Origin: a virus
Virus record (IMG/VR): IMGVR_UViG_3300017728_000101
Span: 1-25,122 of that record
Length of the DNA: 25,122 bases
Strand: one strand, 5' to 3'
The notes beneath the pieces were generated by a model, which saw only the letters and a program-made list of their open reading frames with translations, did not search any database and was not told the DNA's origin. Of this stretch, positions 3 through 19,923 are shown piece by piece (position 1 is the stretch's first letter; each line of letters opens with the position of its first letter). The position numbers were made by a program, and so were the translations under genes.

Positions 3-2351
3 AGAGCCGCGGCTAAAAATTTATACACATCAAATACAAAATATAATAATAAAAGTGTTAGAGATCTTATAACACGATGGGCACCTCCGGGTGACGGGAA
101 CAATACACCAGCATATGTAGACAAAGTTGCTAAAGACCTTGGAGTTGATCCAGATGCTGATTTAGGTAATCTAGAATCAAATCCAGCTCTTACAAAAAAG
201 TTACTAAAGTCAATGACAGAAGTGGAAGGTAGAAATAATAAGTTCACTGATCAAATGATTGACAGCGGTGTAGCAATGGCAAACGGAAAAGATCCAAAAG
301 ACGTTGATTTTGCCAAGTTAGAAACCGATGGCGAAACACTTGTATACAAAGATAAAATTATTAAAGATGCAGAAGTAGCCAAAGCTGAAGATGCGGCACT
401 GAAAAAGAAAGCATTAAAAGCTGGTGCTAGAGCAAAGCAAAAAAACTTATTTAACTTATCAACAGAAAACTGGTTAAGTACAGTTGATAGTCCTACATAC
501 AGATGGACTTTTTATATTACTAATAGTAAAATATTTAATGATCCAAGTTTATTAGAAGGATCAGATACAGCGGCTATTAACAATAACAATGCAAAGATAA
601 TAGCACAGACAGGTGTTACTACTGAGTTTGCAATGGATAACTTTGCTATGATACAAAGAGTGGTACCAGGAATGGAACATGGTAATACTACTCCAGGTGT
701 TATACAATTTGATCTTATGGAGCCATTGGGATTTACTTTTTTAGATAGAATTTTAAAAGTTGGAAAGTCTCTAGGAAATCCATATAGCTTACCATCACAA
801 CATTATGTATTAAAATTAGAATTCTTAGGCAGAGATTTTGAAACAGGTGGTAGTGTAAAATATCCTAATGCATTTTTCTATCCTATAAAAATAAATCAAG
901 TAAGAAGTCAAACAGGACCAGAAGGAACTAGATACAATATTATTGCATTTAGTATGATTAAACAAGCACAGGTAGAATCAATTACAACCGTTGATTTGCT
1001 TATACCTAAAGTAAATACAGTTCAAGCATTTGCTGAAGGTTTAGTGACAGCATTTAATAAAGCTGAACTTAATAAGTTACATCCTAATGAAGTTAAGAAC
1101 GGAGTTAAACCGCCAAAAGAAATTGAAATTCTTTTTGATAAAACTAGTGACATATCTGGTATATTAGCTCAAGACACTAAATCAGGAGAACAAATTGGAG
1201 ACTTTAGTTTAAAATTAAAAGCGTGGGGTTCAACAGCTAACGCAGACAAAGGCGCTGGTATGGCTAATGCTATGGACGATGCAGATGTGAGAGAAGCATC
1301 AATTAATGCATCAACTGCATTAGGTCCAGAAATTAAAAAACAAATTGAACGTAACTGTCCAGCCTGGGCCGCATACGTTAAAAAAGTTAATGAAGAAACA
1401 GGAATAACTCTTAGTATAATTGTTGACCTAGATATAAAATTTGGAATAAGAGATGAAAAAACAGGCCAACTTGAACATAAAAAAATTACATTTAAAATTG
1501 GTATATACACAGATAGCACTGGTGCAAGTATGAATAAAAAGAAAGATATAGAAAGATTACAGAACCAAGCATTTCAAAAACAAAGATTAAAAAACTTATC
1601 TATATGTAAATCGTATAGTTACTTGTATTCAGGAATGAATACCGAGGTACTAAACTATAGTCTTGACATAGAACAATTATATGTTACATCAAGAATTCCA
1701 TTAGATGGAGTATATCATTCAGAAGGTAGACAACAATACACCAGTTCAAACCCAACTAAAGCTACCAAGTACTTAGAAGATACTGATTACAATCCAATGA
1801 CTGACTATATTGATTTAGTTCAATATGTAGACAAACCATTAGGTGTTGAAGAGCAACAAAAAAACGAAAACGATAATAGTGATACGTTATATGCTCAAAG
1901 GCTTGGAGCTATAGCAATGAGAAGTGCTGATGCGATTAACTTTAACATTGAAATAAAAGGAGATCCATTTTGGCAAGGTAACACATTTAGAGCTCATGTA
2001 CAAGGAACAGATAAATCACCATTGCCGTCAACAGATTCTCTAATGATAACATTATTAAATTATAATCCCAATCCAGACGATTTATTAGAAAAACAAGTTA
2101 GAGGCCCAGTTGATTTAGTTTCAACTGGAGTATACAAGATAACTAGTATAGAAAGTAGATTTCAAAGTGGAAGGTTTACTCAAAATCTAATAGGATTTAA
2201 GGATCCACTAACTAATCCTGGATTAGTATTGAATCAATTAATACAAATAACAGATGGTAGTGCACCTGCACCAACAAGTGAAAACAAATATGTAGGCACA
2301 CCAATGAAAGAAAAAGCAGTAAACAGCACATTCTTTGATGGAGGAACATAA
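3..2351 (+). CDS. Baseplate hub protein, gp27-like, with N-terminal virion domain (5' end outside window)
   Basis: Partial gene. The frame is open from the first complete codon (base 3), so the ATG at 213 is internal and not the start. Bases about 3-235 encode a motif of the type RDLITRWAPP, then YVDKVAKDLGVDPDADL and an E-G-R-N end. I recognise this pattern from a widespread family of phage structural proteins whose exact role is unclear; it may help with cell-wall contact. After a charged Lys/Ala-rich linker (about 290-450) the remainder resembles gp27-type central hub proteins. Supporting motifs are a central IKGDPFWQG (about 1950-1976) and a terminal stretch GVYKITSIESRFQSG followed by FTQNL (about 2130-2190), typical of the last hub domain. 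The known role of gp27 is a trimeric ring joining tail tube and spike, which fits the spike gene directly downstream. The hub call is moderately sure; the upstream domain is certain as sequence but not as function. Confidence 0.72.
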   Translation, partial: RAAAKNLYTSNTKYNNKSVRDLITRWAPPGDGNNTPAYVDKVAKDLGVDPDADLGNLESNPALTKKLLKSMTEVEGRNNKFTDQMIDSGVAMANGKDPKDVDFAKLETDGETLVYKDKIIKDAEVAKAEDAALKKKALKAGARAKQKNLFNLSTENWLSTVDSPTYRWTFYITNSKIFNDPSLLEGSDTAAINNNNAKIIAQTGVTTEFAMDNFAMIQRVVPGMEHGNTTPGVIQFDLMEPLGFTFLDRILKVGKSLGNPYSLPSQHYVLKLEFLGRDFETGGSVKYPNAFFYPIKINQVRSQTGPEGTRYNIIAFSMIKQAQVESITTVDLLIPKVNTVQAFAEGLVTAFNKAELNKLHPNEVKNGVKPPKEIEILFDKTSDISGILAQDTKSGEQIGDFSLKLKAWGSTANADKGAGMANAMDDADVREASINASTALGPEIKKQIERNCPAWAAYVKKVNEETGITLSIIVDLDIKFGIRDEKTGQLEHKKITFKIGIYTDSTGASMNKKKDIERLQNQAFQKQRLKNLSICKSYSYLYSGMNTEVLNYSLDIEQLYVTSRIPLDGVYHSEGRQQYTSSNPTKATKYLEDTDYNPMTDYIDLVQYVDKPLGVEEQQKNENDNSDTLYAQRLGAIAMRSADAINFNIEIKGDPFWQGNTFRAHVQGTDKSPLPSTDSLMITLLNYNPNPDDLLEKQVRGPVDLVSTGVYKITSIESRFQSGRFTQNLIGFKDPLTNPGLVLNQLIQITDGSAPAPTSENKYVGTPMKEKAVNSTFFDGGT
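2340..2344 (+). promoter_or_regulatory. Shine-Dalgarno site of the spike gene
   Basis: GGAGG lies 8 bases before the ATG at 2353 and overlaps the end of the hub gene. It decides the start: the upstream in-frame TTG (2335) and ATG (2338) overlap or precede this site and cannot use it. Confidence 0.8.
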
Positions 2352-7821: not shown

Positions 7822-10800
7822 ATGTCTAAAAAGAAAGCAGGCCCAAACAAGGTAAACAAAATTAAAACTAGTAACTTTTTACCTAATGTTTTTCAAACAG
7901 ACATTAATAAAAGTTGGTTAGATAGTACCCTTGACCAAATGGTTTCAAAAGGACCGCTAGGACAAGTTAATGGATACATAGGAAATAATAGTGGAAAGTA
8001 TTCAGTATCTACAGACAAATATATAACTCCTAGTGTTGATGCTACTATAAGAAACAAAACTCAACTAGCACCTGCTATAGTATCTTATAATAATAACCAA
8101 GACTTAACTAACAAAATTTCTTTTGATGATATAACATATGCAATAAATCAAAACTTTAATGCTTACAATTATAATGCGTCTTATTCATCAAGTAAATTTA
8201 CATTTAGTCCTCCAATTAATGTTGACAAATTTTTAAACTTTAAAAATTATAGATGGGTTGAAGAAATGCCTGTATACGAAAGTGTTTATACAGGAGCGAA
8301 CAAAGATCCTCTTATTGATATGTTGCGTGTGCCAGCATATAAACTAACTGACGATAATAATTCGTTTGTACTAGAAGTTGGCATGATTATAAAATTTAGT
8401 GGAACAGGATGGGATTCAACTGTAAAAGATAAAACTTATCTAGTAACTGCAAATAATCCAGAAACAAAATTAGAATTATATAAAGACTCAAATGGAGTTA
8501 AAGTTTACAATAGTTATAGTAAACTATCAAAAAGAAACTATGGTGTATGGGATACTGGTGAACCTGTAAGAGTTTCTCCAAATACTGCAAACAGTTATTG
8601 GGCTACTAGTAATCAATCGCCACAAGCATTAGTAGATGCTTATAATGCTGATACAAATAGACTTCCTTTGTTTGACGGATTTATTTTTGGAAACGAGGAT
8701 AGCAATCCTGCACAGTTTAAAGAAAATACTTTAATAAGATTTACTGCTGGTTGGGTTCACAATGGTCAAACTACAAACACAGAATCAATTTATATTACAC
8801 AAGTAGATGCATCAACAAAAGATGTTTCATTTAAAAAATTAGTTGATGCTACATTTAGTAATAATAAATGGACAGCAACAAATGTAGCAGGTATAACTGC
8901 TAACGAACTTGCTTTAATTAATTCACTAGATGGACACGATGAAGATAACGAAAAATGGGATCACCAGGCTCCACTAACACCAAACAAAGATTATATTGTT
9001 ATAGATAGAGGAGATGTATATCAAACTGCTTGGAGTAGAACAAATAGCTGGGTTAACTTTGCTACTATTAATAAAGTACAAGAGTTAATTCCAACACATG
9101 ATTTTACTGAAATACTAAATGAAAATAGAATTGCACAGAGACCAATTATAGAATACAATGAAGAATTAAATTTATGGAACTATGCAGAAAAATCATTGGT
9201 AGCAAATAAAGTAGGTAAAATTGACTATGGTGTAGTAAGTGGAGAAGATTTATCTGTTCTTCCAATTGATGCTACATATGTTTATATAGATAATAGTGAT
9301 ACTAAAGTTTATCAAAAAACAGCTTTGAACTTTGTTGCTATAAAAACTTTAGCAGATAATGATGTTATGCAAATTAACTCTGTAGCAAATCCTGCTTACG
9401 CAGATTGGAGATATGCAGATGTTTATTATAAAAATAATACAATTACATTAGGTCAACAAAAAACAAAAATTAATCAGTATCCATTATACAAATTTTATAA
9501 CTGTGAAGGTATTCCTTTAGAAGATATATACTCTACAGGATTTGCCGGTGAAAAGATTTTTGGATATAAAGTTGGAACAGGAACATTTGTTGATCCTGAA
9601 ATTAATCATGTATTAAGTTATAAAGATACACCTAAGGGTGCAGAGTATGAATTTGAAAATTTCTTACTAACTAAAAACTACAAAAAATCATATGACGATA
9701 CAGTACAAAATATAAGATATGCAAAACCATTAGCAGGTTATAATCATATTAAAAACTCAGGAAACTTAGAAACATTTTATAAACCATCAGGAACTTTAAC
9801 AGGCGCCAAAGAAACTAAACAGTATGAAATTACAATACCCGACACAGCATTAACTATACCAGTTGGTAAAAATAATTGGAGACCCGAAGAAGAATATAAT
9901 GTAATTGTTAAAGGTAATGTAACTGTATTAGCTAAATGCAACAACGATGGCACTTACAACGAGTCTGTTAAAAAGACTAGACATTTAGTTGGTGTAGAAC
10001 AAACATTTACATTAAATAATTTAACAGGAAAAACTATTACATTTCTAGCAGGACCAGTTGATATTGAGAATCCTGGAGGTAATGCAATACCAGATATGAC
10101 TATAACTAGAAGTGGTTCCAAAATTACAATAGTTACTGGATCAAACAGCGATGGTGATCACTTTACTATACTTGCAGACAATACTGAAATAGCATCTATG
10201 ACAATTTCAAAAGATTGGGATGAACTGTTTTACAATGTTAAAGTTAACGGTAATCCAGTTCCAACATCTTTGGTAAGTGCAAATGCTACTACTTTAGTTA
10301 TTGATCAAAGTTTATTTACTACAGGAGATTTAGTTGACTTTGTTTGGACAAATAATGATGCAAGTAATCCAACAACAAATATTAGTTTTCCAGAAACACT
10401 AGAACATAATGCCAATAACAAACGTATATATGAATTTACTATGAGTGAAACAATCGATCATTGGTTAGACAAACTTACAGTTAATCCAGGTTACTCTGGA
10501 ACTATGTTTGGTGATAATAATTATTCTAGCATTGTTCATACTCCATATTACGGAGGTACAATGTTTGTGCATCCAGACATTAGTATAATGCATGATATAA
10601 ATTACTCAGATAAAGATTTAAACATAACTGCAATATTAAATGAACAGGCTAATGATTGGTATGCATTTAGAAAAAGATTTTTAGCACAGGTTAAAAGATT
10701 ATATACTGTAGGATCAAATAATTCTAGTATAAAACTTTTAACTGAATCTGCTATTAAAGAAATTATTAGAAATAAAAAAGATTCAGAACTTTATAATAAT

Positions 10801-13800
10801 TCTAATATGGTATATCATAACACATATGATATTGAAACATTTACTATAACAGATACTACTGTAAAAGAATTTAAAACAAAATTTGATATACACGGTGATC
10901 AAAATATCAGAGATCATGTATATGTATATCTAACTGAAAACGATGGAAATAATAAACAAGTAGAAAGAATATTATTAAAAGACACAGATTATGATATAAT
11001 TGGTGATACTGTATATTTAAAACTTACATATGCGGCACTTGATAATGTTAACACTAATCCAATACTTAATGTAGTATACAACCAAATGGATAACAAATGT
11101 TATATTCCACCTAGTATGGTTAAACTTGGATTAGCTTATGGTATGCAACCACAAGTAGTTGGTTCAACCTTGTACACACACGATGGTGATACTTATACAC
11201 TAACTGGACAAATTACAGATGTAACTGGAGCTAACTTTGATCCTGTACACGCGGCATTGTTTGATTTAGAAAAAAGAATTTACGCAGGACTACCTGTACA
11301 AGATTTAATGTATAGAGATGATTATTGTATCAAAGACAAATATAAAAGTGCTACAGATTATATGCCAAGTCAACATATATCTACTTGGTATAAGTTAGCA
11401 GACATTGATAATTATTTAGAAAAGTTTTATCAAACTTGGGCTAATAAAAATGAAAAGACAAGTTTAAATATTGCGAACTATTATGATCAAACTGATCCAT
11501 TTACTTGGAATTACAGCTCATTAAGCATAGGTAATAAGTTTGGTACTAACAAACTACCAGGACATTATAAAGGTGCTTATATGACGGTATTTGGCACCTC
11601 TACACCACACTTAACACCGTGGCATATGTTAGGTTATTCATTTAAGCCTACTTGGTGGGATACCTACTTTAGTTGGACTGATGCTACAAAAAGAACTGCA
11701 TTACTTAATGCATTATCAAATGGTATTGTAAAACCACAAGCATCGCCAGATACAGAACAAGATATAAAATATGCAAGACGTTATTGGGACTTTACTAATA
11801 ATTGTCCTGTAGATACAAACGGTGATTTAGTAAATCCCGATACAGTACTAGGTGCTCCTACAGCTTCAGATGCCGCACAAGAATTTGTGTTTGGTGATTG
11901 GGGTCCTGTAGAAATAGAATGGCGTCAATCTGCATTAGGTCAGGCAATGACTGTTAATGCTATGTTAAAATTAAATCCTACTAGAGCATGGTCAGATTAT
12001 TTTCAACCTGGCAAGGTAAGAGATTACTATACATCATATACTAAAAGATATTTAAATAGTTCTTGTTTTACTATGCCTGGTGAAACTTATAAAACTATTA
12101 ACAGTATTAAGATATTAAGTAGTTCAGGATTAACTGATACAAACGAGTTTTACTTATTAGATAGCTACGATAGTGTTTTAGGTACTGCAAGATTTAAATC
12201 CACAGGTGGCAAAATTACTGCAACAAGTATGGTAGGTAGAGGAACACACTTTACAGGTGAACCTATACTTTCGTATAGTGATAGTATGAGCGGTGTAACA
12301 GTTAGTTACGAATTAGAATTAAAAGAAGTATCATATGTAGCTAACGGAATATCACAGGCTCAACATAATTACATTTTAAGAAAACAGTTAGATAAAAACT
12401 TTAAAGAGTTGTATAATAATCTAACAACAAAATTATTACAAAAACTTGAAGGGTATAGTAGTAAACATTTATTAAACATCTTTGGAGAAACTAGTTACTA
12501 TGGTGATTTTGAATTTGGCGATAGTGATTATAATATCTCAATGTATGAAGGTACAGCTAATGATTTTGTTAACGCATCTATAGTATTAATTACTAAAACT
12601 CCAGATGCATATACTGTAACTGGTGTAGCAGATAATAAAAGAGAATTTAAATTCTTTGAACCTAATATTAGCAATGGAACAGATTTTGAATTACAGACTA
12701 TTAACGGTGCTACGGTAAGAAGATATAATAAATTTGTAAGTACACCTAGCACATTAGAGTTTGGCAGTAAGGTTAGTAAGATACAAGATGTTTATAGTTT
12801 TGTTAGAGGTTACTGGAAATATTTAGAAAGCCAAGGATATAACCTACAGTTTGAAGGTGATCAAAACGCGGCTGACTTTGTTAATTGGACAAATACTGCT
12901 GAAGAAAATGATACTTATATATTACAGATAGGAAGAAGACTTACTTATACTCCTGAGTCAGGATCGGTTTATCCTTACAACGAATTAAGCTATAACAATA
13001 ATAGCATACTTGATATGTTCAGCAATAAGATTGAACAAACTGATTTAAGCATATCAAGAAAAGATGGAATAGTATCAGTTGAAACTAAAAACCAAAAACT
13101 TATTGGAAGTATTACTACCGCTAGTACGAACTTTGAACACGCATTGATATTTGAAAATACAACCGCATTAGGAGTCACTGTATATGATGACGTAAAAAAT
13201 AAAAGACAACATAGATTATTAGTTAGAGGTCAACTTACACAAGAATGGAATGGTGAAAAGAAAGCACCAGGTTATCTAGTGTTTGGTGATCATATTGTTG
13301 AAAACTTTGATAGTGCAGTACAAGCCGTTGACGATATTTACAGAACAGATGTAGATGAATTTAATAAGTCTATTACTAAATCAAAAGATTTAGCTATTGG
13401 TAATATAGATAAAGTTTGGTTAGATGGATTAGGACTGAATAAAAATACTATTACAAGATTTCACCAAGGTAGTATTAAACAACAAGGTACAAAAGGTGCA
13501 GTTGAAAGATTTGGAAGATCAACATTACTTGACGGTGGTAAAACAAGTTTATCAGTTTTTGAACAATATATGTTTAGACAGTCTACACTTGGTAATGATG
13601 ATTTACAAGAACCATTTGAAATGGAATTAGTATCAAATGATATTATAAACTTACCTTTAGCTATTGACCTAACTAGTGTTGATACAACAAAAATTATAAA
13701 TGATGTAGCAACAACATTTGAAACATTAAGTTATGATGATTCAAGTTCAGACATATTAACTGGTGGAGAAACATTAACAACAGAAACAAAATACCATATA

Positions 13801-16800
13801 GCAAATTTAACAAAAATGAAATATGTTTTTGATTCCACAGACTCATATGCAACAATACCAACATGGAATTCAACTACAAGTTATAAAAAAGATGACCTAG
13901 TAAGACACAACGGTCAACTATGGAAATGTAGTGTTAATTTTACAGGACTTACTGAACTGGCACCTAATATAACTGAAATAGGTACAGTGACTAACCCAGT
14001 ATTTCCTAGTGGAACAGTTGCAAACATTGCAGGTACTACGGTTACATTTAATGATACAGCAACAGAATATCAAGATATAGAAGCAGTAGGTACTGTAGTA
14101 AGTCCAACATTCTTACCAAGTGAGACATTAATTATTGATGGAGTAAGTATTGGATTTACTAAAACAGAAAACGTTACAATAGTTACAGGTAATGCAGTAA
14201 TAACAGGTAACGTTGCTAACCCAAGTATTAATGATGTAACGGGTAAGCAAATTACAATTAATGGTTCTATAGTTGACTTTGATACAACGCCAGCAGATGT
14301 TGTAGAAACAAAGTCAGCAACAAACCAAGCACCAGCAGATGCTACAGAAACAAATACAGCTACAGCATCACAAACAGATTTTACAGTTTCGGCCCAGTTA
14401 AGTCCAAGTACTTGGAGTGTTCTAAAAGTGGAAGTAGACAGTACACCAACTACAAACTATACCGTGGCAGGACAGGTTGTTACAATTAACAACCCAGCAA
14501 TGGTAGGTGGTGAGACAGTTGATATAACTGTAACTCACCAACCTATTATTCAAACAGCATATACAATAAATGAAACATTATCAAACACTACCTATAGTGT
14601 TGCTAGTGTAACAGTTGCAGGTGTAGTAACTTCTAATTGGACAGTTAATGGACAAGTGTTAACTCTTACGTCAGCACCATCATTGAATGATGCAGTAGTA
14701 ATAACACTAACCCACGTACCAGACAATATGAATACTGCACAGATAGTAGCTCAAATTAACAATGCAGGAATTACTGGAGTAACAGCTGGTTTAGTTGCTA
14801 ATTCTGGATTCCTTCAAATTATATTTACTACAACAGATCCTACAGCAACATTAACGTTAGCATCAGGTTCAAGTAATACAGATTTAGGATTTCTTGCAGG
14901 TGGAAGTGTAGTTGCACCTCCTACAGAAATTGGACAGCAATCAACTCCATTGAATTTATCAGAAATAGTTCAGCAAATTAATAATACAACAAATTTATCT
15001 AATGTAGTTGCATCAGCTGATTCAAATAGATTAAAATTAACAAGTACAAACATTACATTATCAGTAACTGGTTCTGCACAAACTATACTAGGATTAAGTA
15101 CAGCATATACTGCTACAACAGTTACAGCACCAATTGATACTACAATGAATTCAGCTATTACGCAAATTCAAAATGCGTTAACTTCAGCAAGTAATACTGA
15201 AGTAACAATTACAGCAGATGCAAACAGAATCAAAATAGTATCAGAAGGAACTTCATTATTACTTGGTGATACTACTTTTAATTCAATAGCAGGTATTAAT
15301 ACAGGAACATTGAACGCCGCATCAGGAACAATTCAAAATACGTTTGATATAAATGACTTTGGTGGAGTACCAGTTGATTCAAGTTTAGACCCAGCAACAT
15401 TTAATATACTAGTCACTGATGATAGTGAATATGAAAATGCTTCAGTTGAAAGTATTAACACAAAATTCTTTGGGTACAATATATTCCAAGTAACACAGAA
15501 CAATGTTCCATTATACTCAGAAAGTACAGACGGAACACATTGTGGAATTTGTGCAGGTACAGCAACATCAGATGGTAACGATGCAGAAGTAACAACAAAT
15601 ACCGATCATGGATTACAAGTTGGAGACTTTGTTATGTTATTGAATACAACCACTACTCCTAATATAGATGGAATACATAAAGTTACAAAATTAGGAAGTG
15701 GAACTAACTCGGGTAGAATTTTTTATATAGACGAATTTATTAAAGAGTGTGGGAATGCAGTTTCTGTTATGCCATTAGTAACTACTAGGTTTGCAACAAC
15801 GGCTCAGAGAGATTCAGCACTAACAAAAACACATTGGAATTTACCAACAGGAACAATAGTTGTAGCAAGTAGAGATACTAACAATGTACGTGGAACATAT
15901 GTTTCAAGTACGTCACTTATTGGTACAGGTCTAAATGAAGTAAGACAGACAATAGCAAGACCAACCAATACAGATATTGATAGTATTATTATATACAATC
16001 ATAAATCAAATCAAACAAAGGTACAGCTAGAAGCATTTGACCCAATGAGAAAAGTTATACCTGGTATAGCTGAACAAAATTTAGATTATAGTAATGTAAA
16101 TGATAATGCAATTTATAATACAACAACAGATGAAAATCGTTTCACTGACAATGATAATGCTTGGGGCAGTGAACAAGTAGGTACTAGATGGTGGGATACA
16201 AGTCAAGTTCGTTACTTTGATTATGATCAAGGTGATAACTCATATAGAAAAGATATGTGGGGTAAACTATTTCCAGGTAGTGAAATTGTAGTTTGGGAAT
16301 GGATTAAGTCTACAGTAGCACCAGATGATTACGCAGAGAGTGTTGAGCAACAAAAAGAAATGTTTGGTGTTCCTGCTACCGGCGAAGCATATATAATATA
16401 TGATACTGTAGCTAAAGAGACAAACTATTACTATACACAAGAACAAGAGTATAATGTTAGCACAGGTAACTATGATGATGTATATTATTTTTGGGTTAAA
16501 AATAAAACTACTATAAATGATACAAGAACTTTATCAGCATTTGATGTTGCTAATATTATTGAAAACCCATCAGCGAATGGAATAAGTTGGTTTGCAGTAT
16601 TAGATAACAATACATTTATTATTGACAATGTTAGTTTTTATGTAGAAGATACAAGTACAGTATTACAAATTAATAAGGCAGGAGACAAGTTTAAATCTCA
16701 CAACGAGTGGACGTTGATAACAAAAGACTTAGATACTATTCCAGAATATTATGTTGAAGGTATGAAATATAATTTATCAGGATGGGATAAAGATTCTAGT

Positions 16801-18309
16801 AAAATTCCATTTACAGCTTTACATAAATTTAATAAGTACGGAGATGATTTAGACTCTGGACAAACTTGGTTTAATAATTTAATTACTGCTAGACGTAATG
16901 CAATTATAACAATTAATGATTTATTAACTACTGTTAATCTGTATGATGAGTATAGAGATAGTTGGAACAAAACACTAGTTGCAAATAATTTTCCAAGATA
17001 CTTGTGGAAGTGGAAAGACTATAAATTAGAAACATACTTAGGTAATTTAAATTATACAGCTACAGTTACATCAAGTGATCAACTTGAAACTACAATAGAT
17101 AAAACATTAGATAAGGTAGTTCAGTTACCAATATATGATACAGATTTAAAACTTGACAGAAGTGAAATTTATTACTACAATGAAGACAAATGGATTCTAG
17201 TACACAAGAAAAATAGTACAGTTGAATTTGATGTAGATTTATTATGCCCAACAGGTGGATATGATAATGTTCCTTTTGACTCAAGAGGTTGGGACCATGC
17301 TAACGTAGCTGGGTTCTGGCAAACTCTTATTGAAGCATTAAAGAAAGACATATTTGTACAATATCATAAATTAAAGATGAATAAGTTATTCTTTAGTATA
17401 ATTGATTACACATTAAGTTCGTTTGCACAAACAAACTGGATTAGAAAAACAACATATGTCAAAGTTGAAATAGATAGTCAAATTGATACTACTTCAAGAG
17501 CTTATAAAAAAGATAATTTAGTTAATGCGTTAGGTTACATACAAGATATTAAACCGTTCCATACAAAGATAAGTACAGTCAAAACTAATTATAAAGTTAT
17601 TGATGAAGCTACTTTAACAGTAACGGAAACACCTAAACACGTAATTACAATGAACACACAAGATTTTACTCCAACATTTAATGGAACTACATATGTTGGA
17701 GCAGATAGCACAGACATAGTAACAGGTGGAGACTTTACTAGTACTCCAGCAGATACTATTGAAGCTATAAACTTCTTATCACCATATAACTTTAATGTCA
17801 ATGAAGGTGAGAAGCGAAATAGTTTTGTAAACATAAACCCACTTGAATTGTTGCGTATTAATGTTCAAACAAATCAAACAGGAAATACAACAGCAAATAG
17901 TTCAAGAACGTTTACACATATACAAGATGCGGCAGGCAATGTAAAAGCATATGCCTTACTTGAATCTAGAAAATCTACACTAACTTCTGCAATAGATGAA
18001 GATAGTACAGATTTATCACTAGCAAGTACAACCGCATTTGATGACACAGGACTTGTGTATATTGGTGGAGAGATAATTGAATATGCTAAAACCGATGCTA
18101 CTACATTGAAAATAATGAAAAGAGCAGTAGGACAGACATTTATAGTATCAGCAGATACAGGAGATGCTGTAGTTCAAATATCAAACTATCAACTTACATT
18201 TGCTAATGATACTGTAAGTTATAATCAAACAGGCGGTTCATTATTGAGTACACCTGTATCAGAACCTGCACAAGAGTTGCAAGATTTTGGTAGAGGTATA
18301 GAGTTATAG
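7822..18309 (+). CDS. Giant modular virion protein (3495 aa), in the gp7 position
   Basis: One unbroken frame of 10.5 kb directly after gene 6, where T4 has gene 7 (about 1030 aa). Parts I recognise from giant myovirus structural proteins: NFLPNVFQTDINKSWLD (18-34); a W-S-R-T-N-S-W block then AQRPIIEYN (about 400-450); PHLTPWHMLGYSFKPTWW (about 1261-1280); WGPVEIEWRQSALG (about 1360); WLDGLGL to GRSTLL (about 1864-1903); AWGSEQVGTRWWDTSQVRYF with KLFPGSEIVVWEW (2780-2830); and YIQDIKPFHTKIS (about 3240). Inserted is a beta/repeat region: a W2015-x5-Y-K-K-D-D-x-V-x-H-N-G-x-x-W sugar-binding-like motif, three short repeats (2054-2165), two tandem beta repeats (2182-2298) and three flagellin-hook-IN-like repeats (2303-2500). 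CGIC (2574-2577) precedes an HGLQVGD beta domain (2588-2637). The C-terminus has a TDLSLAS-TAFDDTGLVYIGGEIIEYA module (3387-3455). I infer an outer wedge or arm protein with adhesive insertions. Gp7 equivalence is positional only. Confidence 0.7.
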   Translation: MSKKKAGPNKVNKIKTSNFLPNVFQTDINKSWLDSTLDQMVSKGPLGQVNGYIGNNSGKYSVSTDKYITPSVDATIRNKTQLAPAIVSYNNNQDLTNKISFDDITYAINQNFNAYNYNASYSSSKFTFSPPINVDKFLNFKNYRWVEEMPVYESVYTGANKDPLIDMLRVPAYKLTDDNNSFVLEVGMIIKFSGTGWDSTVKDKTYLVTANNPETKLELYKDSNGVKVYNSYSKLSKRNYGVWDTGEPVRVSPNTANSYWATSNQSPQALVDAYNADTNRLPLFDGFIFGNEDSNPAQFKENTLIRFTAGWVHNGQTTNTESIYITQVDASTKDVSFKKLVDATFSNNKWTATNVAGITANELALINSLDGHDEDNEKWDHQAPLTPNKDYIVIDRGDVYQTAWSRTNSWVNFATINKVQELIPTHDFTEILNENRIAQRPIIEYNEELNLWNYAEKSLVANKVGKIDYGVVSGEDLSVLPIDATYVYIDNSDTKVYQKTALNFVAIKTLADNDVMQINSVANPAYADWRYADVYYKNNTITLGQQKTKINQYPLYKFYNCEGIPLEDIYSTGFAGEKIFGYKVGTGTFVDPEINHVLSYKDTPKGAEYEFENFLLTKNYKKSYDDTVQNIRYAKPLAGYNHIKNSGNLETFYKPSGTLTGAKETKQYEITIPDTALTIPVGKNNWRPEEEYNVIVKGNVTVLAKCNNDGTYNESVKKTRHLVGVEQTFTLNNLTGKTITFLAGPVDIENPGGNAIPDMTITRSGSKITIVTGSNSDGDHFTILADNTEIASMTISKDWDELFYNVKVNGNPVPTSLVSANATTLVIDQSLFTTGDLVDFVWTNNDASNPTTNISFPETLEHNANNKRIYEFTMSETIDHWLDKLTVNPGYSGTMFGDNNYSSIVHTPYYGGTMFVHPDISIMHDINYSDKDLNITAILNEQANDWYAFRKRFLAQVKRLYTVGSNNSSIKLLTESAIKEIIRNKKDSELYNNSNMVYHNTYDIETFTITDTTVKEFKTKFDIHGDQNIRDHVYVYLTENDGNNKQVERILLKDTDYDIIGDTVYLKLTYAALDNVNTNPILNVVYNQMDNKCYIPPSMVKLGLAYGMQPQVVGSTLYTHDGDTYTLTGQITDVTGANFDPVHAALFDLEKRIYAGLPVQDLMYRDDYCIKDKYKSATDYMPSQHISTWYKLADIDNYLEKFYQTWANKNEKTSLNIANYYDQTDPFTWNYSSLSIGNKFGTNKLPGHYKGAYMTVFGTSTPHLTPWHMLGYSFKPTWWDTYFSWTDATKRTALLNALSNGIVKPQASPDTEQDIKYARRYWDFTNNCPVDTNGDLVNPDTVLGAPTASDAAQEFVFGDWGPVEIEWRQSALGQAMTVNAMLKLNPTRAWSDYFQPGKVRDYYTSYTKRYLNSSCFTMPGETYKTINSIKILSSSGLTDTNEFYLLDSYDSVLGTARFKSTGGKITATSMVGRGTHFTGEPILSYSDSMSGVTVSYELELKEVSYVANGISQAQHNYILRKQLDKNFKELYNNLTTKLLQKLEGYSSKHLLNIFGETSYYGDFEFGDSDYNISMYEGTANDFVNASIVLITKTPDAYTVTGVADNKREFKFFEPNISNGTDFELQTINGATVRRYNKFVSTPSTLEFGSKVSKIQDVYSFVRGYWKYLESQGYNLQFEGDQNAADFVNWTNTAEENDTYILQIGRRLTYTPESGSVYPYNELSYNNNSILDMFSNKIEQTDLSISRKDGIVSVETKNQKLIGSITTASTNFEHALIFENTTALGVTVYDDVKNKRQHRLLVRGQLTQEWNGEKKAPGYLVFGDHIVENFDSAVQAVDDIYRTDVDEFNKSITKSKDLAIGNIDKVWLDGLGLNKNTITRFHQGSIKQQGTKGAVERFGRSTLLDGGKTSLSVFEQYMFRQSTLGNDDLQEPFEMELVSNDIINLPLAIDLTSVDTTKIINDVATTFETLSYDDSSSDILTGGETLTTETKYHIANLTKMKYVFDSTDSYATIPTWNSTTSYKKDDLVRHNGQLWKCSVNFTGLTELAPNITEIGTVTNPVFPSGTVANIAGTTVTFNDTATEYQDIEAVGTVVSPTFLPSETLIIDGVSIGFTKTENVTIVTGNAVITGNVANPSINDVTGKQITINGSIVDFDTTPADVVETKSATNQAPADATETNTATASQTDFTVSAQLSPSTWSVLKVEVDSTPTTNYTVAGQVVTINNPAMVGGETVDITVTHQPIIQTAYTINETLSNTTYSVASVTVAGVVTSNWTVNGQVLTLTSAPSLNDAVVITLTHVPDNMNTAQIVAQINNAGITGVTAGLVANSGFLQIIFTTTDPTATLTLASGSSNTDLGFLAGGSVVAPPTEIGQQSTPLNLSEIVQQINNTTNLSNVVASADSNRLKLTSTNITLSVTGSAQTILGLSTAYTATTVTAPIDTTMNSAITQIQNALTSASNTEVTITADANRIKIVSEGTSLLLGDTTFNSIAGINTGTLNAASGTIQNTFDINDFGGVPVDSSLDPATFNILVTDDSEYENASVESINTKFFGYNIFQVTQNNVPLYSESTDGTHCGICAGTATSDGNDAEVTTNTDHGLQVGDFVMLLNTTTTPNIDGIHKVTKLGSGTNSGRIFYIDEFIKECGNAVSVMPLVTTRFATTAQRDSALTKTHWNLPTGTIVVASRDTNNVRGTYVSSTSLIGTGLNEVRQTIARPTNTDIDSIIIYNHKSNQTKVQLEAFDPMRKVIPGIAEQNLDYSNVNDNAIYNTTTDENRFTDNDNAWGSEQVGTRWWDTSQVRYFDYDQGDNSYRKDMWGKLFPGSEIVVWEWIKSTVAPDDYAESVEQQKEMFGVPATGEAYIIYDTVAKETNYYYTQEQEYNVSTGNYDDVYYFWVKNKTTINDTRTLSAFDVANIIENPSANGISWFAVLDNNTFIIDNVSFYVEDTSTVLQINKAGDKFKSHNEWTLITKDLDTIPEYYVEGMKYNLSGWDKDSSKIPFTALHKFNKYGDDLDSGQTWFNNLITARRNAIITINDLLTTVNLYDEYRDSWNKTLVANNFPRYLWKWKDYKLETYLGNLNYTATVTSSDQLETTIDKTLDKVVQLPIYDTDLKLDRSEIYYYNEDKWILVHKKNSTVEFDVDLLCPTGGYDNVPFDSRGWDHANVAGFWQTLIEALKKDIFVQYHKLKMNKLFFSIIDYTLSSFAQTNWIRKTTYVKVEIDSQIDTTSRAYKKDNLVNALGYIQDIKPFHTKISTVKTNYKVIDEATLTVTETPKHVITMNTQDFTPTFNGTTYVGADSTDIVTGGDFTSTPADTIEAINFLSPYNFNVNEGEKRNSFVNINPLELLRINVQTNQTGNTTANSSRTFTHIQDAAGNVKAYALLESRKSTLTSAIDEDSTDLSLASTTAFDDTGLVYIGGEIIEYAKTDATTLKIMKRAVGQTFIVSADTGDAVVQISNYQLTFANDTVSYNQTGGSLLSTPVSEPAQELQDFGRGIEL
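13864..13950 (+). other. CBM5/12-like sugar-binding motif in the giant protein
   Basis: Residues 2015-2043 read W-N-S-T-T-S-Y-K-K-D-D-L-V-R-H-N-G-Q-L-W-K, the spacing of aromatic residues and the D-x-V strand seen in small chitin/cellulose-binding (ChtBD3-type) modules. The usual Gly-Asp is Asp-Asp. It marks the start of the repeat region and could bind a surface glycan. Confidence 0.45.
13981..14320 (+). repeat. Three diverged short beta repeats in the giant protein
   Basis: Units begin at 13981, 14089 and 14206 (residues 2054, 2090, 2129), spaced 36 and 39 residues. Each reads G-x-V-x-x-P-x-F or similar, then a strand ending in I-x-G-x-x-V-x-F: GTVTNPVFPSG, GTVVSPTFLPS and GNVANPSINDV. The DNA has diverged, so the duplication is old or under selection for variety. 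Confidence 0.6.
14365..14715 (+). repeat. Two tandem beta-domain repeats in the giant protein
   Basis: Residues about 2182-2298 hold two units of about 58 residues. Unit 1 runs from SQTDFTVSAQLSPSTW to VDITVTHQP. Unit 2 runs from IQTAYTINETLSNTTYS to AVVITLTHVP. Both share x-T-x-x-x-T-V-x-G-Q-V-x-T-x-x-x-x-P and the closing T-H-x-P, typical of small Ig-like phage decoration domains. Confidence 0.65.
14728..15320 (+). repeat. Three flagellin-hook-IN-like repeats in the giant protein
   Basis: Units start at residues about 2303 (MNTAQIVAQINN), 2378 (LNLSEIVQQINN) and 2442 (MNSAITQIQNAL). Each continues with a V-x-A-x-x-x-x-x-x-L/I-x-I strand, a T-rich strand, and a G-L/I-x-x-G or L-G-L-S ending. 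The pattern I-x-x-x-I-N then A-D-x-N-R-L/I-K-L/I is that of the IN motif known from bacterial hook-filament proteins. Units are about 60-75 residues and diverged. Confidence 0.55.
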
Positions 18310-18960: not shown

Positions 18961-19923
18961 ATGGCATATACAATTGATAGATATAACAACACTACTTACG
19001 GTGGTGCGGCTGATATCAGTGTAGCAGACAATACATTGAATGAGACAACCAATTTAAAACTCGTTGGTAAAGATTGGGTAGGCTATGGACAAACTATTGC
19101 ACAGAACTCTGTTAGCTTGTTAGAAAATTTTGCAAGTGAAACAGAACCTACTAAACCAACTGAGGGTCAACTTTGGTGGAACCCAGAAACAAAAATCTTA
19201 AGTGTGCGAAGCACAAATAAGTGGCTGGGTATGGATGCTGGTAGTAGTTTTGCTACTATTAAGGCAACAGACAACACAGACAAGAATGTGTTTATTACTA
19301 GATCAAATGGAGTAGTAGTTTCGATTACAAGCTCATATGAAGATTTTATAATTAACACTAGTGAAACAGTAATTGAACCTTTATTCAGAGATAATGGTAA
19401 TCCATCAGTTGCTGGACCGGCAACAATCAAAGCTGGTATTAATATGACAACCGATGCATCAAACGTAAACAAGACTTACTTGTTTCGTGGAACTGCTACA
19501 CACGCACAATACGCTGACGTTGCAGAGATGTATACAGCAGACAAAGAACACGAGCCTGGAACAGTAATTATGTTCAGTGACGATTCAGTTGAAGGACACA
19601 AAGGTGAAGAAGTTTGCGAAACGTTACACGAAAAAGATCCAAAGATGCTTGGTGTAGTTACTACTAACCCAGCATTACTAATGAACTCAAATATTGAAAC
19701 GCCAGAAGGTTTATCTACTATAGCTGTTGCGTTACTTGGAAGAGTTCCTTGTAAGGTTACTGGTATAGTTAACAAAGGTGATAGACTTGTATCAAGTAAT
19801 GTACCTGGTCATGCTATGGCAGGTAAAGATGATATTAGATGGACACACGTTGTTGGCAGAGCTTTAGAAAAGAAAAATACTGAAGGCGAAGGTGTTATAG
19901 AAGTTATAGTTGGGGTAAAGTAA
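18961..19923 (+). CDS. Tail-fibre or baseplate appendage protein with conserved C-terminal domain
   Basis: The 320-aa product has the two ends typical of fibre-like proteins of T4-like marine phages. The N-terminal part has K37-D-W-V-G-Y-G-Q-T-I-A-Q-N-S-V-S-L-L-E-N-F (to 57), then P-T-E-G-Q-L-W-W-N-P-E-T-K (66-78), a motif repeated in many phage fibres. The C-terminal domain begins HAQYADVAEMY (181-191), then EPGTVIMFSDD, LGVVTTNPALLMN, VALLGRVPCKVTGIVNKGDRLV and GHAMAG, ending in VGRAL...GEGVIEVIV. This domain is shared by many long fibres and resembles, at a distance, auto-processing or chaperone tips of other fibres. I see no sure catalytic residues. It probably trimerises and binds the host or decorates the baseplate. 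It starts 2 bases after the previous stop; the next gene follows with no gap. Confidence 0.7.
   Translation: MAYTIDRYNNTTYGGAADISVADNTLNETTNLKLVGKDWVGYGQTIAQNSVSLLENFASETEPTKPTEGQLWWNPETKILSVRSTNKWLGMDAGSSFATIKATDNTDKNVFITRSNGVVVSITSSYEDFIINTSETVIEPLFRDNGNPSVAGPATIKAGINMTTDASNVNKTYLFRGTATHAQYADVAEMYTADKEHEPGTVIMFSDDSVEGHKGEEVCETLHEKDPKMLGVVTTNPALLMNSNIETPEGLSTIAVALLGRVPCKVTGIVNKGDRLVSSNVPGHAMAGKDDIRWTHVVGRALEKKNTEGEGVIEVIVGVK

Follow-up and report, generated by a model that had tools for sequence, protein, structure and literature searches.

What fills the middle of the giant virion protein encoded by this phage, and does it pass between phages as a unit? The stretch of DNA analysed (the window) is an entire virus record of 25,122 bases. 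An earlier note had described a block at residues ~2010-2640 of the giant protein as a swappable host-contact cassette, set apart from its flanks by content and codon use. Upstream of the giant ORF lie a gp5-like hub gene, a gp25-like gene (PF04965, E 2.9e-8) and a gp6-like gene (phrog_10646, E 5e-247). The phrog_10938 profile matched the giant protein with an E value of 2.4e-178 in four stretches, the best aligning residues 1485-3043 with profile positions 1117-2139. This profile covers most of the protein outside the slot (the stretch between two flank anchors), and the gp25-like, gp6-like, giant gene order, which recurs in PA5oct, Atu_ph07 and Phosso, also fits membership. As judged from homology and gene order, the giant protein is a member of the baseplate-region family (phrog_10938) of RaK2/PA5oct-type jumbo phages.

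Homologues were found in the jumbo phages PA5oct, Atu_ph07, Salicola SCTP-2, Sinorhizobium Phosso, Vibrio 2.275.O, RaK2 and their kin, with identities of ~21-33% per matched stretch; the record of the PA5oct homologue carries an ESI-MS/MS mark. The window resembles the phrog_10938 proteins of RaK2/PA5oct/Atu_ph07-type phages in gene order and in homology that, outside the slot, extends along most of the protein. Unlike the window, all six named homologues lack the hairpin/IN arm described below, and their slots measure 222-522 aa or, in Atu_ph07 and Phosso, ~1540 aa (1536-1544 aa), occupied by other modules. Gene order by itself suggests a gp7 role for the giant protein; comparisons with T4 gp7 and gp10 detected no similarity (T4 gp7, used as a single sequence, gave an hhalign probability of 0.2 against alignments A4 and A6). 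Atu_ph07 gp181 and gp182 are listed as baseplate in a part of PMC6102473. The passages of PMC10253068 on RaK2 adsorption assign the receptor-binding proteins under study to the long fibres and to gp098, and mention neither gp070 nor gp071. Pelagimyophages and cyanomyophages are described in passages of PMC7029224 as having a VrlC protein in place of gp7, which is a different case from the arm. Downstream of the giant gene, a 320-aa protein (18961-19923) matched tail-fibre PHROGs weakly and, below threshold, Peptidase_G2, an intramolecular chaperone (E 0.0029).

Table 1. Features of the giant gene in the window, and forms of a small virion protein in related records (prefixed by record).
Feature	Position	Strand	Basis
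Giant baseplate-region virion protein, 3,495 aa, single ORF	7822..18309	+	downstream of gp25-like and gp6-like genes; phrog_10938
CBM5/12-like hairpin module, first part (residues 2014-2046), core	13861..13959	+	PF02839; alignment A4
Insert or arm (residues ~2047-2511), missing from short-slot homologues	13960..15354	+	alignment A4; unit scans
Three beta-hairpin units (residues ~2052-2084, 2088-2120, 2126-2158), putative outgoing stalk half	13975..14295	+	G-x-V-x-x-P in each; unit scans; strands in model m662bfed2c4e9
Variable tip (residues ~2164-2298, 135 aa), two small beta modules	14311..14715	+	tip of 9-234 aa over 48 homologues; module copies
Beta module, copy 1 (residues ~2190-2241)	14389..14544	+	unit scan; model confidence low here
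Beta module, copy 2 (residues ~2251-2300)	14572..14721	+	unit scan; fold match to phage joint domains, model 530-669
Three IN units (residues ~2299-2368, 2374-2435, 2437-2502), putative returning stalk half	14716..15327	+	unit scan; strand-helix-strand-strand in model; flagellin/FliD matches
CBM5/12-like module, second part after insert, approximate	15355..15411	+	alignment A4
HGLQVGD domain (E1-FCCH/endosialidase-type beta barrel), core	15490..15780	+	VIA Z 8.9, rmsd 2.1-2.2, 74-76 residues; 0.73-0.79 identity
205-aa protein, filled form	L099:1723-2340	+	hairpin and IN profile matches
205-aa protein, filled form	L100:1595-2212	-	hairpin and IN profile matches
Empty forms, 105 aa (L057 phage) and 111 aa (PA5oct gp245)	L104:1339-1656, L106:1321-1656		end-to-end alignment minus one domain

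With the downstream-flank alignment (A1), 586 IMG/VR relatives were retrieved, of which the best 80 were used; together with the named phages and the window they gave 88 proteins with both flanks, and 78 after removal of identical rows. Across these 78 homologues (the IMG/VR members being the best 80 of 586), slot length ranged from 222 aa in RaK2 to 1544 aa. Ten proteins form a short-slot group, nine with ~334-351 aa (L052, L067, L069, L070, L071, L076, L079, L084 and L089) and L063 with 387; the window's wider group has slots of 690-936 aa. The figures of 808-849 aa for L072, L083, L090 and L091 include some anchor, the upstream anchor being cut short in these four. Family scans covered 67 of the 78 slots, leaving out L012, L013, L042, L051, L075, L090, L015, L017, L026, L045 and L086. 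By tblastn both flanks matched the phage collection; the block itself, searched against 50,697 phage records, had no such match at E 0.01. The whole giant protein had no match among PDB sequences up to E 1, A1 met only antibody fragments there (E 0.4), and a profile search with A2 returned nothing but CBM-type chains, the strongest at E 0.017.

Where the insert begins and ends can be read from alignment A4. Short homologues keep a CBM-like module and an HGLxVGD domain with no break of hundreds of residues, whereas long homologues have ~465 added residues between '...CSVNFTG', which ends at window residue 2046, and 'NTFDIN' (2511). The CBM_5_12 match at residues 2014-2039 has an E value of 2.7e-5 in the whole protein and 1.9e-6 in the slot alone, and its PF02839 scores (24.5 and 28.2 bits respectively) lie either side of the Pfam cut-off of 26.2, with positions 1-26 of 44 matched. 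In the short proteins L089, L067 and L071 the match reaches position 38-39 of 44, whereas in the window, L047, L053 and L027 it ends at 26-29; the exception is L084, which has no arm and whose match also ends at position 25. Because the break in A4 and the truncated Pfam matches of the long proteins fall at the same module, we place the insert inside the CBM-like hairpin. In 13 close relatives, identity was 0.66 over the CBM stretch and 0.73-0.79 over the HGLQVGD stretch (2575-2664), equal to or better than the flank windows (0.52-0.78), and it fell to 0.35-0.43 at residues 2305-2454. Thus the contrast between a variable block and conserved flanks expected from the earlier note holds for the middle of the block and for slot length, but the two ends behave like the flanks: as far as alignment can tell, the core of the protein includes both the CBM-like hairpin and the HGLQVGD barrel, which lie outside the true insert and are kept in homologues that lack it, so that bounds of 2010-2640 are too wide.

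Both core modules have structural counterparts (given here as VIA Z scores, where by the tool's own note 8-10 is barely above unrelated models and values under ~8 are not decisive). The intact CBM5/12-like module of L084 resembles one in the baseplate of phage Milano (8fqc_P1, Z 7.7, 45 residues, rmsd 1.4) and one in the chitin oligosaccharide deacetylase 3wx7 (3wx7_A, Z 6.6); the window's module, unlike these, is split by 465 residues. A second, intact CBM5-like module was observed in the downstream flank of L084, L053 and L055 (A4 columns ~1790-1840), and this module seems itself to have been inserted repeatedly. The HGLQVGD domain has a fold like that of E1 FCCH and endosialidase beta-barrel domains (PF16190, PF12195; 7pvn_A, Z 8.9, 76 residues, rmsd 2.1), and the corresponding L084 domain gave Z 9.7 with 7sol_A; in a core barrel of a baseplate protein, this predicted likeness would be one of fold only.

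The tandem modules reported in the block are present: CBM_5_12, three G-x-V-x-x-P units, two beta modules, three IN units and HGLQVGD. Within the true insert the order is three hairpins (motifs GTVTNP, GTVVSP and GNVANP), the tip, then three IN units. Profiles of the hairpin and IN units, built from close relatives and iterated, were run on all 78 slots (best 80 of 586; near-copies are included in the unit and length counts). Three IN units were found in 49 slots, two of which had a fourth, weak hit, and these armed slots carried three hairpins in 30 cases, two in 17, four in one and none in one. Among the other 29 slots, 28 had neither unit and L074 had one IN hit only. The IN region measures 192-235 aa with a coefficient of variation (CV) of 0.045, whereas the tip, measured from hairpin 3 to IN 1 in 48 proteins (L040 being unmeasurable), spans 9-234 aa with a CV of 0.40. 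In terms of unit number and length, then, the stalk is constant and the tip is variable.

The tips fall into a group of 26 with one or two copies of the beta module, a group of 17 with other sequence that looks helical by eye, a group of two, two singletons, one tip of 9 aa and the one left unmeasured. The window carries two beta modules, and relatives at ~60-63% flank identity carry one; within one tight group L030 has two copies and L029, L042 and L043 have one. In L023 an additional copy stands elsewhere in the slot. A module with a GTTDFT motif was also seen at differing places among relatives: L016 has it ahead of CGICAG, L021 and L025 close to window residue 2690, and L032 within its tip. 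Judging from these sequences, what the tip contains, and in how many copies, is what changes readily.

We modelled window residues 1630-2759 (model m662bfed2c4e9; pLDDT 73.8, pTM 0.37), and most of the insert is predicted with confidence, the exception being ~2172-2239, a stretch in which the model of the first beta module is poor. Vibrio flagellins matched with VIA Z 9.2-10.3 over 85-87 residues of model 455..803-805, i.e. hairpin 2 to IN 2, the best being 9n8h_A (Z 10.3, rmsd 2.2, 85 residues). Helicobacter pylori FlaB matched over model 495..738, hairpin 3 to IN 1, at Z 7.6, and FliD chains gave Z 7.8-8.0 (5h5v_B, Z 8.0); the tip falls within both the flagellin and the FlaB ranges. Foldseek against the PDB found nothing at E ≤ 0.001 for the window model. 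For the L084 model it returned four endosialidase chains at that threshold, which we set aside as whole-chain matches given their probabilities of 0.30-0.41 and rmsd near 30. The label hook-IN, taken from the earlier note, is thus weak in sequence (PF07196 had no match in the window and matched one of 67 slots, at E 0.003) and is favoured by the structure comparison, in which the arm's domains have a predicted fold like the D2-type domains of flagellin and FliD, where the hook IN motif occurs.

How the units pair is suggested by a much smaller protein. In whole-record searches with the arm (8 records), a 205-aa protein in the L014 and L022 phages was found in which one hairpin leads directly into one IN unit (E 3e-6 and 2e-7 for the hairpin, 1e-13 and 6e-14 for the IN unit). 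The homologues of 105 and 111 aa align with this protein end to end save for a domain of ~95-100 residues; the 111-aa form, PA5oct gp245, lies in the same gene neighbourhood and is noted as detected by ESI-MS/MS. Because the protein exists in filled and empty forms, one hairpin plus one IN unit makes a complete insertable domain, and the pair of forms is a clean case of domain insertion in a virion protein. The giant protein would, on the model, carry three such domains, each with its chain opened at the same place.

From the aligned VIA ranges and this single-domain relative we infer that the pairs are nested: hairpin 3 would pair with IN 1, hairpin 2 with IN 2 and hairpin 1 with IN 3. In the arrangement that we propose, the giant baseplate-region protein belongs to a jumbo phage with a contractile tail and displays at its surface a small CBM5-like hairpin, into which the arm is inserted. 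From there, three beta-hairpins would run outward to the tip and three strand-helix-strand-strand units would return, forming a stack of three flagellin/FliD-like domains with the tip farthest out. The fold is thus probably an out-and-back stalk bearing its variable part at the tip, where small domains would be gained, lost and replaced while the stalk keeps its count and length. In flagellin the chain likewise runs out and back, with its variable parts in mid-chain. Unlike flagellin and FliD, however, the arm lies within a baseplate protein, has three nested repeats and shows no coiled-coil D0/D1 ends.

Such an arm would be exposed on the virion and may touch the host envelope, or hold another fibre, during adsorption. 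The composition of the insert bears on this. Residues 2047-2511 contain 18.9% Thr, against 9.4-11.3% in the upstream and downstream flanks, and 1.7% Lys+Arg, against ~9%, and include the most Thr-rich and the most Lys/Arg-poor windows of the protein. The supposed difference in content therefore exists for Thr, and for Lys+Arg as well, but not for Asn (9.0% both in the insert and in the upstream flank), and the supposed foreign codon use was rejected, synonymous choice being no different in the insert from that outside it (chi-square 30.7, 31 df, p 0.48). Since the arm belongs to a virion protein, has few charged residues and combines a constant stalk with a variable tip, we think that exposure and a contact function is the likeliest reading, the host envelope being a somewhat likelier partner than a docked fibre; host contact is plausible on these features. 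Taken as a whole, the best explanation (a nested, exposed arm with a fixed stalk and a variable tip, mostly inherited vertically and contacting the envelope or a fibre) is on balance probably correct.

The tip may instead hold another fibre or spike protein and make no direct receptor contact. This docking role stays alive because the best fold matches of the beta module are phage joints and connectors, namely the N-terminal domain of the CBA120 tailspike TSP4 (Z 8.4), neck/portal-complex chains of DT57C and T5 (Z 8.1-8.3) and gp48/gp49 of Shigella phage B2 (Z 8.7); in passages of PMC10253068, gp10-like N-terminal domains of CBA120 tailspikes are described as assembling a branched receptor-binding complex. 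However, the fold is a common one that indicates no function, and tips that are unrelated across clades, and only 9 aa long in one homologue, poorly fit a conserved partner. We consider docking unlikely.

We give no better chance to a neutral or stabilizing decoration, i.e. bulk that is weakly constrained, tolerated and without a specific ligand, although the rates of change could be read in that way. In the window/L014 and window/L015 pairs, dN/dS of the insert was 0.44 and 0.39, compared with 0.11-0.28 and 0.11-0.29 in other segments; all values are below 1, so these pairs show raised rates but no positive selection. Of 13 pairs, which overlap in membership and are not independent, 12 differed more in amino acids within the insert, the exception being window/L094 (0.11 in the insert, 0.14 in the flanks), and amino-acid divergence extends across the stalk as well as the tip. 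A decoration would likewise accommodate the differences in module copy number between close relatives. It sits badly with a three-unit stalk of near-constant length in all 49 armed slots, and with an arm that is not freely lost: on a tree of 67 of the 78 flanks (quick method; 11 near-copies left out), arm presence changes twice, and the starred branches force only one change.

The same material bears on exchange. Four-fold degenerate sites diverged equally in insert and flanks (p > 0.05) in 10 of the 13 non-independent pairs. The others were L030/L043 (p 0.049), L082/L087 (p 0.014) and L044/L045 (p 0.0007), and only the last survives correction for 13 tests, with a four-fold divergence of 11% in the insert and 5% in the flanks. 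L044 and L045 are near-identical phages, and their insert divergence is possibly a mark of local exchange. A sign of recombination between the window and L094 (Nei-Gojobori dS 0.23 in the insert against ~0.40) was rejected, as it is gone at four-fold sites (0.15 and 0.19, p 0.22). On a more careful tree of 47 of the 49 armed flanks (L012 and L013 left out), eight tip classes required nine changes, compared with a minimum of seven and a mean of 24.2 after shuffling. Among the closest relatives co-linearity is kept, and the indels within the block measure 1-2 residues.

That phages exchange the entire block as one cassette by recombination, altering host contact, is therefore very improbable: L029/L030 (flank identity up to 0.83, slot identity 0.48 when reckoned over the longer length), small modules at different places in relatives and L044/L045, the one exception in the test of insert against flank history, are what it can call upon, but a single unit from CBM to HGLQVGD is rejected by its core ends, and recent wholesale exchange by co-linear close relatives, by equal four-fold divergence and by arm and tip labels that follow the flank tree. 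Because its protein changes faster, its four-fold sites have in most pairs diverged as much as those of the flanks and two changes on the flank tree suffice to explain its presence, the arm is best seen as old, inherited and fast-evolving, and as not freely swapped. What the sequences record is vertical descent in which the protein changes fast and modules are now and then gained or lost, not free exchange of the block.

More tentatively, the flagellin-like arm may be a plug-in domain of jumbo phage virions, inserted once in the small protein and, nested three-fold, in the CBM-like loop of the giant one, with a tip rebuilt by tandem duplication, loss and replacement on a fixed stalk; it would then form a third variable class of host-contact structure beside fibres and spikes. 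A literature search judged by titles and abstract openings found the arm undescribed, which does not imply absence from print. Variation in host contact among jumbo phages is usually sought in tail fibre genes. If the arm touches the host, part of this variation would lie inside a giant baseplate protein annotated merely as 'virion structural protein'. A stalk that stays constant with a tip that varies would also provide a simple handle, in that metagenomes can supply tip sequences, each of which can be tested as a small domain on its own.
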